Of a DNA stretch of 64,000 nt, positions 15,209-20,336 are shown in pieces. The notes under the pieces were generated by a model. The model was not told the DNA's origin. It did no database searches and worked only from the letters and a program-made list of their open reading frames with translations. A program made the position numbers and the translations under genes. This DNA is from Nocardioides xinjiangensis (lineage in GTDB: Bacteria; Actinomycetota; Actinomycetes; Propionibacteriales; Nocardioidaceae), in the NCBI RefSeq assembly GCF_017916455.1, contig NZ_JAFMSY010000001.1, positions 1,285,977-1,349,976 of the forward strand, read 5' to 3'. Position 1 is the first letter of the stretch, and each line of letters opens with the position of its first letter.

Positions 15209-15424
15209 GCGGAAGACCCTTCCATAGGTCTGAGAGTGGAACCGCCCCCTGCGTGTTCGGCCCCAGACGACTGCGCCCGATCTCCTTGACGAGTCAACGA
15301 GGCACACCGTAACCGAGACGTCCACGGGACGGGCAATGACCGTCAACATTCGGCCAAGTTGCCCTGCGCGCCCGCCGTGGCTGAGACTGGCCGCTGCTCG
15401 TCGACCGCTGGGGGATGGAGAATC

Positions 15425-16868: not shown

Positions 16869-16900
16869 TCTTGCCCGAAATCGACACCGTCGTGGCAAGA
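16869..16900. promoter_or_regulatory. inverted-repeat candidate operator upstream of the XRE-TPR regulator
   Basis: TCTTGCC at 16869-16875 and its complement GGCAAGA at 16894-16900 flank an 18-base spacer. The right arm lies just before a CACAAT -10-like hexamer (16908-16913) that is six bases from the ATG, so the transcript may be leaderless and the site could mediate autoregulation. The same GGCAA core recurs upstream of the convergent peptide gene. Confidence 0.4.
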
Positions 16901-16919
16901 CGTGCACCACAATGTCCGG

Positions 16920-18278
16920 ATGGACTCGCGTCACGCCGAGCTGCTGGAGCACACCGACCGGAAGGCACTGGGCCGTCGCCTGCGCGCGGCACGCCTCGCT
17001 CGCGGACTCACGCAGGGTGAGGTCGCCCGGACGATCATGTCGGTCGCCTACCTCTCCCGCATCGAGGCCGGGCACCGCGGGCCGACGTACCCGCTGCTGG
17101 TCGCGCTGGCCGAACGGCTCGACGTCACGGTCGAGTCGCTGCTCGGCGAGCCCGACCGCCACGCGGTCGACGAGATCCGGCTCGCGCTCGACTACGCCGA
17201 GCTGTCCCTGGAGTCCGGCCAGCCCGAGGACGCCGAGAGGCACCTCACGTCCGCCCTCGAGCAGCTGCAGACCTCACGGGTCGAGGGCATGCGCGATCGC
17301 GCGCGGCTCCTGCACGCGCGCGCTCTCGAGGCGACCAACCGCGAGGACGACGCGATCGTCGAGCTCGAGTCGCTGGTCGACGACGGCGAGGCCGACGGGC
17401 TCACGCGGATCCGCGCCGGCATCGCCCTCAGCCGCATCTACCGCGAGACGGGCGACCTGGGCCGCGCGATCGAGTGCGGCCAGCGGGTGATGGCCTACGT
17501 CGAGGAGGCCGGGCTCGACGCGTGCGACGAGGCCGTGCAGCTCGCCGTCACCATGGCCGCGGCCCACTTCGAGCGCGGCGACACCGGCCACGCCGTCCGC
17601 ATGTGCCGCAAGGCCATCACCCGCGCGGAGTCGCTCGGGTCGGCCCAGGCGCGCGCCTCGGCCTACTGGAACGCGAGCGCCATGCAGGCCAGGCGCGGCG
17701 ACGTCACCGCCGCGGTCCCCCTCGCCGAGCGCGCGTTGGCGCTGCTGAGCGAGGGCCGCGACGCCCGCAACCTCGCCCGCCTGCGCACCGAGGTGGGCCG
17801 GCTGCAGCTCGAGCTCGACCCGCCCGCGATCGACGAGGCGCGCACGAACCTCGAGCAGGCGGCCGCCGAGCTCGAGTGGAGCAGCGGCACGCCGGTGGAC
17901 CGCGCGTGGACGCTGCTCGGCCTCGCGCGCGTGGCGTTCCTCGCCGGCGACCCGTCGACCTGTCGCGAGCTGATCGCGCAGGTGCACGCCACCGCCGACG
18001 GGCACGCGCCCCTGGCCGAGGCCGAGGCGCTGGTCCTCGAGGGCAGGACCCTGGCAGCGGAGGGCGAGGCAGACCTCGCCGCGCAGGCCTACCAGCGGGC
18101 GGTGCACCGGTTGTCGGCCATCGGCGCCGACCAGAGCGCCGCCCAGCTGTGGTTCGACCTCGCCGACCTGCTCTCGAGCGTCGGCATGGCCGAGGCCGCC
18201 ATGGACGCCTACCGGCGCGCGGCGGTCTCCACCGGGCTGCGGGCGCGCGTGGCGTCCACCACGCTCGCCCGCAGCTGA
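16920..18278 (+). CDS. XRE-family HTH regulator with TPR-like helical repeats
   Basis: The 452-residue protein has a Cro/C1-type helix-turn-helix at about residues 20-75 (LRAARLARGLTQGEVARTI, then SRIEAGHRGPTYPLL). From about residue 85 to the end it has continuous TPR-type helical hairpins. This HTH plus TPR layout is that of RRNPP regulators (PlcR, Rgg, NprR), which bind short secreted peptides re-imported into the cell. It is convergent with a tiny gene for an exported peptide 43 bases downstream. The ATG at 16920 is preferred over an upstream in-frame start because the HTH follows closely. Binding of a peptide is an inference from architecture and context. Confidence 0.85.
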   Translation: MDSRHAELLEHTDRKALGRRLRAARLARGLTQGEVARTIMSVAYLSRIEAGHRGPTYPLLVALAERLDVTVESLLGEPDRHAVDEIRLALDYAELSLESGQPEDAERHLTSALEQLQTSRVEGMRDRARLLHARALEATNREDDAIVELESLVDDGEADGLTRIRAGIALSRIYRETGDLGRAIECGQRVMAYVEEAGLDACDEAVQLAVTMAAAHFERGDTGHAVRMCRKAITRAESLGSAQARASAYWNASAMQARRGDVTAAVPLAERALALLSEGRDARNLARLRTEVGRLQLELDPPAIDEARTNLEQAAAELEWSSGTPVDRAWTLLGLARVAFLAGDPSTCRELIAQVHATADGHAPLAEAEALVLEGRTLAAEGEADLAAQAYQRAVHRLSAIGADQSAAQLWFDLADLLSSVGMAEAAMDAYRRAAVSTGLRARVASTTLARS

Positions 18279-18321
18279 GTCGGCGTCAGCCGGACGCGAG
18301 GGCCGGCCGAGCGCTAGAGGG

Positions 18322-18441
18322 TCAGCAGCACCACACGGTGCGGGTCGTCGTACGGACCTGCGCCGCCTCGGCGGGCGCGGCGAGGCCGGCCACGCTGACG
18401 AGGGCGACGGCGGCGACGAAGAGGCGGGTGGCGCGGTTCAT
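18322..18441 (-). CDS. 39-residue exported peptide with C-terminal Trp-Cys-Cys
   Basis: A GGAGACACC-ATG start gives a peptide with a textbook signal sequence: basic MNRATR, hydrophobic LFVAAVALVSVAGLAA, and an AEA-type cleavage site. It is followed by a short mature tail rich in Thr and Arg that ends VWCC. The predicted mature peptide is about 12 to 13 residues. It has its own promoter region and lies tail-to-tail with the XRE-TPR regulator. It is a candidate signalling peptide for that regulator. Alternatively it could be a small membrane-associated or metal-binding peptide. Confidence 0.65.
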   Translation of the reverse strand: MNRATRLFVAAVALVSVAGLAAPAEAAQVRTTTRTVWCC

Positions 18442-18506
18442 GGTGTCTCCAGGGGTGAGTGCTGAGTGGGGTTGGCGGGCGTCCCGAGCCGGTCCAGCAG
18501 AAATCT

Positions 18507-18567
18507 TGTCAAAACAGATGCCGAGTGTCGCCGCCTTTGGCAAACTTGGGCAAGCCCCCTGGCAAAT
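18507..18567 (-). promoter_or_regulatory. promoter region of the peptide gene with three GGCAA-type sites
   Basis: On the plus strand the cores GGCAAA, GGCAAG and GGCAAA start at 18539, 18549 and 18561, spaced 10 and 12 bases apart, about one helical turn. On the minus strand they lie 25 to 55 bases upstream of a TTGACA box (complement of 18507-18512). That is a normal place for an activator, and no good -10 box is visible. The motif matches the inverted repeat at 16869-16900. Confidence 0.4.
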
Positions 18568-18712: not shown

Positions 18713-20227
18713 TCAGTCGTGGCCGCCGGGCAGGAGCACGCGGACGCAGGTGCCGGCCCCGGGGGCGCTCTCGAAGCGCACCTCGCCGCCATGGGCCTCG
18801 ATGATCGTCCGTACGTTGTGCAGCCCCAGGCCCGCCCCGGGGACCCGGAGCCGGCGGGCGTTGCGGCCGCGGAAGAAGCGCTCGAAGACCTCGCCGACCT
18901 CGTCGTCGTCCATCCCCGGACCGTGGTCGGCGACCGTCACCACGGCGTGCGCCCCGTCCCGGACGAGGTCGACCGCCACGGTCCCGCCGGGCGGGCTGTA
19001 GGCGATCGCGTTGGCGAGCAGGTTGTCGAGGACCTGGCGCAGCCGCATGCCGTCCGCGACGAGGGCCAGCGACGCCGGGCGGCGGCAGGTGATGCGTACG
19101 CCCCGGTGCGCCGCGTCGAGCTGTGCTGCGTCGACGGCCTGGTCGAGCACCGACGCGAGGTCGACGGGGTAGCGGTCGACGAGCGCGGACCCGGCCGAGG
19201 CGCGCGTGCTGTAGAGCAGGTCCGCGACGAGGTGGGACAGCCGGAGCACGTTGCGGCGCACGGCGTTGACCTGCTGCTGGTCCTGGCGACTGACGTCGCT
19301 GGACTCGTCGAGCAGCTCGAGGTAGGCCAGGGCGGACGTCAACGGCGTCCGCAGCTCGTGCGACACGGTGGCCACGAACTCGTCCTTGACGTTGAGCGCG
19401 CGGACGAGATCGGTGACGTCGTGGTAGGCCAGCACGGCACCCGAGGCCGTCCCGGCGCGGTCGACCACGGCCCGCGAGGAGACGGAGAGGGCGCGGCGCG
19501 CGGCCGGGTCCTTGCCGACCCACACGCGCAGGTCGTCGAACTCCTCGCCCCGGGCGGCGCGCGCCGAGGGCATGTCGCGCGGCGCCAGGACGTGCCGCTG
19601 GTCGGCGCTGTAGGTGAAGCCCGCCTGGCCGGCGAGGCCGCGGTGTCCCGACGGGAAGGCCAGGGCGAGGAAGTCTCGGAGCCGGTCGTTGCAGGCGAGG
19701 TAGCGACCGCGGGTGTCGACCTGCAGGAGCCCGACCGACACGCCCTCGAAGATGGCGTGCGCCTTGCGCCGCTCGGTCTCGGCGGCGCTCTCAGCGGCGT
19801 CCAGCCGCTCCACGAAGGCCTGACGCTCGGTGAGGTCGGCGACCTGGGAGACGAAGTGGACCGGCGCACCGCCGGCGTCGCGGAGCAGGGCGACGGAGAG
19901 GTCGCCGACGACGATGCGCCCGTCGGAGCGGACGTAGCGCTTGGTGATCCGGTAGGAGCCGATCTCGCCCGCGAGCGTCCGGTCGACCAGCCGCAGGTCG
20001 TCGGCCAGGTCGTCGGGGTGGGTGATGTCGGACAGGGTGAGCGTCGCCAGCTCGTCGGGCTCGTAGCCCAGCATGTCGCAGAGCGCGCCGTTGGCGGTGA
20101 CGACGCCGCCGGCCAGGGAGACGATGGCCATTCCCACCGGCGAGTGCTCCATGGTGAGCCGCCAGAGGTCGTCGGCGAGGGAGACCCGACTGTCGGGCAC
20201 GACCACCTCTGCCCCTTCCGACGACAT
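18713..20227 (-). CDS. PAS-domain sensor histidine kinase, soluble, orphan
   Basis: The 504-residue kinase has two PAS-type domains (about residues 15-130, with GYEPDELATLTLSDITHPDD, and about 150-260). A HisKA segment follows, with the phosphoacceptor His in VSHELRTPLT (about 290), then a HATPase domain with NLLANAIAYSPPGG and GAGLGLHNVRTIIEAHGG. No membrane segments are seen, so it senses a cytoplasmic signal. No response regulator gene is adjacent, so its partner is elsewhere. GGAGG lies eight bases before the ATG. Confidence 0.88.
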   Translation of the reverse strand: MSSEGAEVVVPDSRVSLADDLWRLTMEHSPVGMAIVSLAGGVVTANGALCDMLGYEPDELATLTLSDITHPDDLADDLRLVDRTLAGEIGSYRITKRYVRSDGRIVVGDLSVALLRDAGGAPVHFVSQVADLTERQAFVERLDAAESAAETERRKAHAIFEGVSVGLLQVDTRGRYLACNDRLRDFLALAFPSGHRGLAGQAGFTYSADQRHVLAPRDMPSARAARGEEFDDLRVWVGKDPAARRALSVSSRAVVDRAGTASGAVLAYHDVTDLVRALNVKDEFVATVSHELRTPLTSALAYLELLDESSDVSRQDQQQVNAVRRNVLRLSHLVADLLYSTRASAGSALVDRYPVDLASVLDQAVDAAQLDAAHRGVRITCRRPASLALVADGMRLRQVLDNLLANAIAYSPPGGTVAVDLVRDGAHAVVTVADHGPGMDDDEVGEVFERFFRGRNARRLRVPGAGLGLHNVRTIIEAHGGEVRFESAPGAGTCVRVLLPGGHD

Positions 20228-20300
20228 GGTGCGAACCTCCACCGTAGGGGTGGGTCCATGCCGCCGTCCGGCCCTGTGGCCGATCAGTGGTGAAAATGAG

Positions 20301-20336
20301 GAGATCACCCCGGACTCGGGCGTCCGGGGTGATCTC
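20301..20336 (-). terminator. rho-independent terminator of the sulfurtransferase operon
   Basis: A perfect 15-bp inverted repeat (arms 20301-20315 and 20322-20336) with a 6-base loop lies 33 bases after the DUF1416 stop. On the minus strand it is followed within a few bases by TTTT. Confidence 0.75.

Follow-up and report, generated by a model that had tools for sequence, protein, structure and literature searches.

A regulator gene and a small gene facing it, on a 64,000-nucleotide stretch of the genome of Nocardioides xinjiangensis (the window, i.e., the whole stretch of DNA that was analyzed), have their closest described counterparts among the peptide receptors of Bacillota. In the Bacillus cereus group, NprR, a receptor of about 420 residues with nine tetratricopeptide repeats (TPRs), adjoins the gene of an exported propeptide, and its signal NprX is not known to have a Cys-Cys (CC) end and is encoded co-directionally with the receptor. 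The window regulator is likewise an XRE-type helix-turn-helix (HTH) protein with TPRs and aligns with NprR over 347 residues, but it comes from outside Bacillota, its peptide ends in CC, and the pairs of its family, known here from sequence, are convergent or divergent. The Rgg-SHP and ComR-ComS systems also have a small exported peptide with a hydrophobic or aromatic tail encoded beside an XRE-type regulator, and ComR matches the window regulator in the HTH; they differ in that ComS and SHP are not known to carry CC, the TPR domain is shorter and the hosts are Streptococcaceae. PlcR-PapR and PlcRa-PapRa share the HTH plus TPR transcription-factor receptor (with a heptapeptide signal in PlcRa), but have a 293-residue chain, fewer TPRs, another peptide and, again, hosts in Bacillota.

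According to PMC10075063, RRNPP screening looks for receptors of 250-500 residues with TPRs of the peptide-binding type, next to a Sec-exported propeptide of 10-100 residues, and the screen reported there covered Firmicutes and viruses only. The window receptor has 452 residues, a TPR_12 match by Pfam and nine TPR helix pairs in the predicted model. The window propeptide has 39 residues and, by our own filter, a leader, and such a gene adjoins the regulator in 108 of 162 cases. The gamma-butyrolactone signalling of Actinobacteria uses small molecules and TetR-type receptors, not peptides and TPR receptors. It is a form of density signalling in the same phylum (PMC4748050), and PMC10075063 describes communication in Actinomycetota as small-molecule based. 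Among the papers listed in the literature search, none has a title or abstract opening that concerns an RRNPP-like pair from Actinobacteria or a signalling peptide ending in CC; this search did not extend to the units GNWPDPM and DISWP introduced below, nor to subscription journals and preprints.

We think it likely that the two-gene module of the window is an RRNPP-like peptide-signalling system, and the peptide-signalling interpretation that an earlier note on this DNA had given to the regulator-peptide pair is supported by our analyses. What carries it is the pairing of the two genes, the leader-plus-tail layout of the peptide, its conserved tail, a conserved single-copy operator-like site, tandem peptide genes and the repeat precursors of one distant genus (g27), together with HTH and TPR domains whose fold is predicted with confidence. 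The propeptide of the small gene would be exported via Sec and then cleaved, and a short C-terminal tail within AQVRTTTRTVWCC, probably the last six to eight residues, would be the signal. This tail would return to the cytosol through an oligopeptide permease and bind in the concave TPR groove of the adjacent regulator, which, once loaded, would bind TTGCC direct repeats just 5' of the peptide promoter and raise peptide expression (positive feedback). The regulator may also control its own gene through an inverted repeat; the signal would presumably act between cells and serve further output genes. The system would work like RRNPP, and its formal membership hinges on binding. The features of the locus are as follows.

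16869..16900, no strand: inverted repeat TCTTGCC-N18-GGCAAGA, 5' of the regulator; possible autoregulatory site
16908..16913, + strand: CACAAT, putative -10-like element of the regulator (CA[CG]AATG in 29 of 49 relatives)
16920..18278, + strand: regulator gene, ATG at 16920 to TGA at 18278, 452 residues, XRE-type HTH plus TPR; proposed cytosolic receptor
18322..18441, - strand: propeptide gene, 39 residues, leader plus tail ending RTVWCC; convergent with the regulator
18325..18363, - strand: predicted mature tail AQVRTTTRTVWCC, with the presumed cleavage after AEA judged by eye
18447..18450, - strand: GGAG ribosome-binding site of the peptide gene, read directly
18500..18514, - strand: promoter-like element TTTTGACAAGATTTC, between operator and start, similar in close relatives by eye; putative role
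18539..18565, - strand: operator-like site before the peptide gene, with three copies of TTGCC in direct repeat (read as GGCAA on the + strand at 18539-18543, 18549-18553 and 18561-18565)

The coordinates that the earlier note gave for the inverted repeat and the three GGCAA cores are all correct in the sequence, and the convergent 39-residue, leader-bearing gene with a VWCC end that it described is indeed read at 18322-18441 (-). The peptide sequence is MNRATRLFVAAVALVSVAGLAAPAEAAQVRTTTRTVWCC, and the two genes meet head-on across a gap of 43 bp. All the GGCAA motifs it listed are likewise present, with the correction that the cores, read on the strand of the peptide gene, form direct repeats of TTGCC spaced 10 and 12 bp from start to start. 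Elsewhere in the same genome the window peptide has no second match at E <= 10, and the regulator has just one further match, over the HTH.

The 452-residue HTH-plus-TPR regulator of the earlier note is borne out by Pfam, which places HTH_3 at residues 21-72 (1.4e-12) and finds TPR_12 (3.2e-12), and RRNPP-like is a fair label for its anatomy. Nine TPR helix pairs are predicted between residues 80 and 437 (the pairing was read by us from a model with a pLDDT of 91.6 and a pTM of 0.77). In a profile search of solved structures only designed TPR proteins ranked above PlcR (1.7e-12, query 13-195), while ComR, 4yv6 (a "transcriptional regulator" that we take to be Rgg) and others, further down, matched at the level of the HTH. 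When the model was aligned to 959 chains, a set in which the absence of a family carries no weight, its TPR superhelix matched RapI (Z 25.2, 347 residues, rmsd 5.1) and Rap-CSF (Z 25.0), and its TPR part matched apo NprR (Z 23.4, 347 residues) and NprR-NprX (Z 21.0, 338 residues). NsdA-type proteins are also TPR regulators, but the score to their NCBIfam family NF053720 lies far below the cut-off (24.9 vs 75 bits). In TPR proteins the first helices line the groove, and in this family they are more conserved than the second helices (2.71 vs 2.32 bits, the positions not being independent). By TPR consensus numbering, R172 and R175 (repeat 3), Q207 (repeat 4), and W250 and N251 (repeat 5) presumably lie on or next to groove positions. 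The genome encodes one SBP_bac_5 (PF00496) oligopeptide-binding protein, and re-import by an oligopeptide permease is possible.

The association of the two genes extends well beyond the window. Peptide leaders were called by our own filter (charge, hydrophobic core, and an AxA-like site). When 149 genomes of the same taxonomic family were searched with the 39-residue peptide, 13 sites passed E < 0.002; they lie in 10 genomes of one genus (source genome included), and the regulator adjoins the peptide in all 10. The regulator itself was found at E <= 1e-20 in 37 of the 149. Thirty of these regulator loci were read, and 24 have a leader-bearing open reading frame (ORF) ending in CC, with none at L060, L061, L062, L064, L067 and L070. 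A scan of named genomes with the regulator alignment, for which the best 80 of 117 loci were used (three truncated by contig ends), gave a convergent CC peptide by the strict filter in 52 of the 80, many named Nocardioides among them. The named relatives N. ganghwensis and N. astragali have regulators 87% and 82% identical to that of the window. A relaxed look added CC peptides on the convergent side at L112, L120, L121 and L131 (ending WCCL), and peptides on the divergent side at L143, L144, L146 (CCR), L153 and L155. Counting peptides once per regulator, an adjoining leader-bearing ORF ending in CC, or in CC plus one residue, accompanies 108 of 162 distinct regulators (73 convergent, 33 divergent, and 2 tandem), and relaxed reading places a candidate propeptide beside 120 of them. 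The earlier note had suggested looking for homologous regulators beside a small leader-bearing ORF with a conserved C-terminus, and this is the pattern found by the filter. Close relatives have an undisrupted peptide frame, and regulators do have conserved peptides next to them, the two points on which that note had let its proposal stand or fall.

Since selecting on CC would prove nothing, small leader-bearing ORFs were also counted whatever their C-terminus. Within the 730-bp convergent zone of the 80 named loci, 58 of 62 such ORFs end in CC, compared to 6 of 153 outside it in the same 1.28 Mb; four of these six flank the other end of a regulator, and the remaining two (L114 and L152) lie 1.6 and 2.7 kb past the regulator end. 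Around all 162 regulators, each ORF being counted once per regulator, a CC end (with up to two extra residues) was seen in 108 of 131 ORFs that lie on the opposite strand no more than 400 bp away (convergent 76/83, divergent 32/48), compared to 3 of 25 same-strand ORFs and 9 of 223 elsewhere, and these nine are members of tandem arrays (L053, L095, and L098) or neighbours of a second regulator (L152, L231, L238 and, presumably, L066). In a similar count, none of the 82 distant ORFs in the Nocardioidaceae-type clade ended in CC, whereas distant loci had 6 of 45, and those six, under a slightly different filter, were also traced to array members or second-regulator neighbours. An ORF of 39 codons lying opposite a regulator in very GC-rich DNA might arise by chance, but leader, ribosome site and tail recur over dozens of loci in two orientations, and we give this explanation a negligible probability for the window peptide. 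An antisense artefact is unlikely because the peptides occur in two orientations, several families and classes, and the census together with the two orientations rules out a chance or antisense ORF as the origin of the family. A terminator hairpin was likewise rejected: RTVWCC does hold a GCACC/GGTGC palindrome, but RNVWCC tails and divergent loci are, by eye, without it. A single CC peptide gene has more than one XRE-TPR receptor in its vicinity at L231 (G060:C11) and at L152 (Pimelobacter simplex), as if several receptors were reading one signal.

Conservation of the window-type peptide is highest over its final six residues, RTVWCC. Across 24 close-clade genes the last three codons, TGG TGC TGC, are invariant, and the last six give a ratio of nonsynonymous to synonymous polymorphism (pN/pS) of 0.35; in ten genes of equal length this ratio falls from 1.04 in the leader (codons 2-20) to 0.65 in the middle and 0.47 over the last six codons. 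Tandem copies are present twice in L085 and L090 and three times in L095, L098 and G117; those of L090, L095, L098 and G117 vary in the leader or the middle but agree over at least the five C-terminal residues, and the L085 pair is identical. The window peptide has no match in Pfam, its best NCBIfam match is BRANT at 15.8 bits (cut-off 44), and the 25 peptides of alignment A2 reach at best an E of 0.024 in Pfam and 0.022 in NCBIfam.

Two other explanations bear on this small peptide. Toxin-antitoxin modules often have an XRE repressor and a small hydrophobic peptide, and the compact gene pair resembles one in having both, i.e., a membrane-active peptide held by its repressor. However, a 360-residue TPR domain is needless for a repressor, it is the tail and not the hydrophobic segment that is conserved, the peptide gene occurs in two or three tandem copies and the regulator is also found without a peptide, which leaves a toxin-antitoxin-like pair very improbable. 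The peptide could also be a producer-only report on secretion, envelope or redox state, with the CC oxidized outside or the uncleaved peptide sensed. The invariant vicinal cysteines of the CC class would suit such self-sensing, as would C229 of the regulator, which is kept in 59 of 63 rows of alignment A3, though in 71 of 113 CC-paired regulators overall. Tails outside this class and in g27 are cysteine-free, so redox chemistry is not the common core, and we see little chance that self-sensing is the correct account.

The signalling interpretation also draws on the DNA that precedes the peptide gene. Read on the peptide strand, the operator-like site is TTTGCCA-N5-CTTGCCCAAGTTTGCCA, and its two nearest TTGCC repeats form CTTGCCCAAGTTTGCC, which has one exact copy in the genome. 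A 16-mer, YTTGMCNNARTTTGMC, precedes the first peptide gene by 97-108 bp in 19 of the 20 close loci, L079 being the exception, and the GGCAA motif, which the earlier note had proposed to compare across upstream regions, is in this way conserved 5' of the peptide gene. In its own genome the 16-mer occurs once exactly, plus one single-mismatch copy elsewhere, and in the genus it is found in 20 of 147 genomes, as a single copy in each (its placement 5' of the first peptide gene was confirmed for six of those 20), while the reversed control occurs in 1 of 147. More distant clades have a similar layout with TTGAC, TTTAC or TGTGAC half-sites. An expectation-maximization (EM) motif search on 44 of 61 upstream regions of peptide genes (near-copies removed) returned acTTGcC.aAATtTGaC with a log-likelihood of 263.9, against 67.9-79.1 in eight dinucleotide-shuffled sets; at some of the distant loci, promoter sequence may account for part of the motif. 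The inverted repeat of the regulator recurs as TTGMC-N18-GKCAA in 14 of 21 close loci and is, by eye, absent beyond them. The relaxed pattern TTGMC-N5-TTGMC has three sites in the genome (control 0). One of these, at 15332-15346, lies 5' of a Wzz/CpsD-type gene plus a small secreted-protein gene (start 15208, -), 1.5 kb from the regulator; it was rejected as a further target, not being kept as such in two relatives that share the region.

With the promoter of the peptide gene as the sole place of a conserved operator, the output may be the peptide itself, i.e., an effector (a secreted bacteriocin, a thiol- or metal-binding peptide, or a surface-active one) under a dedicated switch that senses something else. 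The CC would then be a reactive, metal-binding pair and the tandem copies would raise dosage. However, rough gene calling finds no immunity, processing or transport gene common to the loci, the tails of relatives go down to about six residues (with presumed cleavage) and are cysteine-free, and the groove-side first-helix positions of the TPR pairs are conserved; we hold an effector to be unlikely.

The repeat precursors speak to the same question. Two loci of family f2, both in genus g27 (L224 and L225), have a leader-bearing ORF, divergent from the regulator, in which GNWPDPM occurs two and three times. A homologue of this propeptide is present in 121 of 121 g27 genomes searched, and among the 30 loci read (L277-L306) eight propeptides have two units, 19 have three and three have four. 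All 85 units are [VI]GNWPDP[MV], the 55 spacers comprise 41 distinct sequences, and a unit stands at the C-terminal end in 30 of 30 propeptides; the regulator hidden Markov model (HMM) matches in 29 of these 30 3.2-kb loci at 93-116 bits, with none at L295. Conserved units between free spacers mean that selection holds the unit and not the whole protein, and these multi-copy precursors point to a processed signal; a conserved heptapeptide-like unit of this kind also fits a recognised ligand better than metal binding or killing by an effector. Yeast alpha-factor is a multi-copy pheromone precursor with conserved units between variable spacers. The g27 propeptides are alike in that one leader-bearing precursor holds several identical units, but alpha-factor is eukaryotic and read by a cell-surface receptor, and the window peptide is single-tailed. 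In f3, a 92-residue leader-bearing ORF (L221:1870-2148, -) has DISWP three times, 372 bp from the regulator and divergent from it. Repeat propeptides thus accompany two of two regulators in f2 and one of six in f3 (L221 alone), the repeat-bearing ORFs in the scan were four, of which L150 (QYPS) looks spurious, and a repeated aromatic-Pro 4-mer was seen in 0 of 764 leader-like ORFs distant from any regulator. Both the aromatic-Pro class and the repeat scan took their definition post hoc from examples, and their counts are descriptive, except for the 0/764 control.

Owing to the class-wide search (394 genomes, E <= 1e-25, four candidates scored per genome), regulators of this type are known from 95 of 394 genomes and 34 of 137 genera. 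CC peptides are mostly divergent from their regulators in f92 (WPGMCC, MYCC, and DFCC), f82, f90, f93, f98, f99 and f106, occur in either orientation in f87, and are represented in Nonomuraea gerenzanensis by a divergent peptide with the tail DAGCC. A phylum search of 396 genomes, some of them already covered, gave 36 matches at 29 loci (L248-L276), and 17 of these, all outside the class, have an ORF of 25-35 residues divergent from the regulator. Their tails are GYPWPK, GFPWPK, YPWPK, SFPWGGT, SFPGP, NWPHVP, NWPKH, NWPHH, GWPKH, GWPRH, KWPWG, RYPWR, PYWP, APWPHCC, APWPPCC, APFPGCCG and LPTWPHC. Tails of f9 and f92 that have both an aromatic-Pro pair and CC bridge the two peptide classes. On a quick tree of 161 rows with many weak forks, the four labels need 32 changes, compared to a shuffled mean of 72.1, which indicates that the trait tracks descent, with repeated gain, loss or side change.

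We find it fairly likely that Actinomycetota have a phylum-wide peptide language, i.e., one XRE-TPR receptor family, many of whose members have their own encoded pheromone that is read inside the cell. The residues xWCC, WPxMCC, WPHCC, NWPKH, YPWPK, GNWPDPM and DISWP would form the signals. Orientation and tail would have diversified by lineage; one genus would have turned to multi-copy, alpha-factor-like precursors, and another branch would have made vicinal cysteines (free, disulfide-bonded or modified) part of the signal.

Several further observations were made along the way. Cysteine-free candidate signals with aromatic-Pro tails are seen especially at L250, L251, L252, L256, L259 and L274. 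Four f98 loci (L209-L212, in G922, G748, G811 and G981) from genomes of 1.6-2.2 Mb have the tails GGIWCC, AQGCCG, WCCLV and WCCDAIPA. The sole phage record with a match, L246 (MT836207.1, an unannotated "Bacteriophage sp." from a human faecal sample), holds a regulator fragment with 67% identity to that of the window. Since a 4-kb alignment with DNA of Nocardioides pini reaches 82.6%, the record looks like mislabelled bacterial DNA, and a phage-borne copy was rejected. Matches on Streptomyces plasmids had no CC peptide in the four loci read out of 14 Streptomyces records. An apparent in-frame stop in f90 regulators was discarded as well, being the natural C-terminal stop in three of the four loci read.

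A number of points weigh against the signalling interpretation. Kinship of the receptor to RRNPP rests on the PlcR profile and the Rap and NprR folds, but HTH_3 plus TPR is a promiscuous combination and eukaryotic LGN scores higher than Rap and NprR (Z 27.8, with MalT at 21.7), so TPR fold similarity alone is undecisive. The retention of N251, in 105 of 113 regulators with a CC peptide and 24 of 49 others, counts in favour of the interpretation, but this statistic, like those of the tail, is confounded by phylogeny. The pN/pS of the whole gene is 0.76 and that of the leader 1.04, which amounts to weak constraint over few sites, and two C-terminal cysteines are odd for a linear pheromone and might serve another chemistry. 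The strict operator occurs at the peptide promoter only, no shared output gene is visible, and 6 of the 44 upstream regions score below 10 bits for the EM motif. By the filter, 54 of the 162 distinct regulators are without a CC peptide. Relaxed reading finds CC at or near the ORF end for five of them (L204, L209, L211, L235, and L236), and seven have aromatic-Pro or repeat propeptides (L158-L161, L221, L224, and L225), and 42 of the 162 are without any candidate peptide even so. Among the 42 are five of the six f3 regulators, the two of f7, seven of the eight from f90 and several from Nocardioides, and such neighbourless receptors may listen to the peptide of another locus or to something else. 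The g27 regulators are distant (93-116 bits), and the step from their precursors to the window peptide would be one of homology; binding, import, expression and a role in density are predictions from sequence.

Apart from the regulator, no gene cluster occurs in more than 18 of the 80 loci (rough gene calling). The PAS histidine kinase encoded beside the peptide gene (18713-20308, -) belongs to the largest one, with 18 of 80 loci, all in the close clade, and it was rejected as a fixed partner on account of this confinement. The polysaccharide kinase fared no better, Wzz/CpsD not being among the clusters with at least eight loci.

If our reading is true, the module would be, as far as searched, the first case of peptide quorum sensing through an intracellular receptor outside Bacillota and their mobile elements. 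A specialist would be surprised by how broad the family is, by its unvarying CC end and by the precursors with repeats. A signal of this kind could be read from the genome and synthesized, so that regulons could be switched on at will, and if the pairs do signal, a peptide code written in the genes exists in a phylum with many antibiotic producers.

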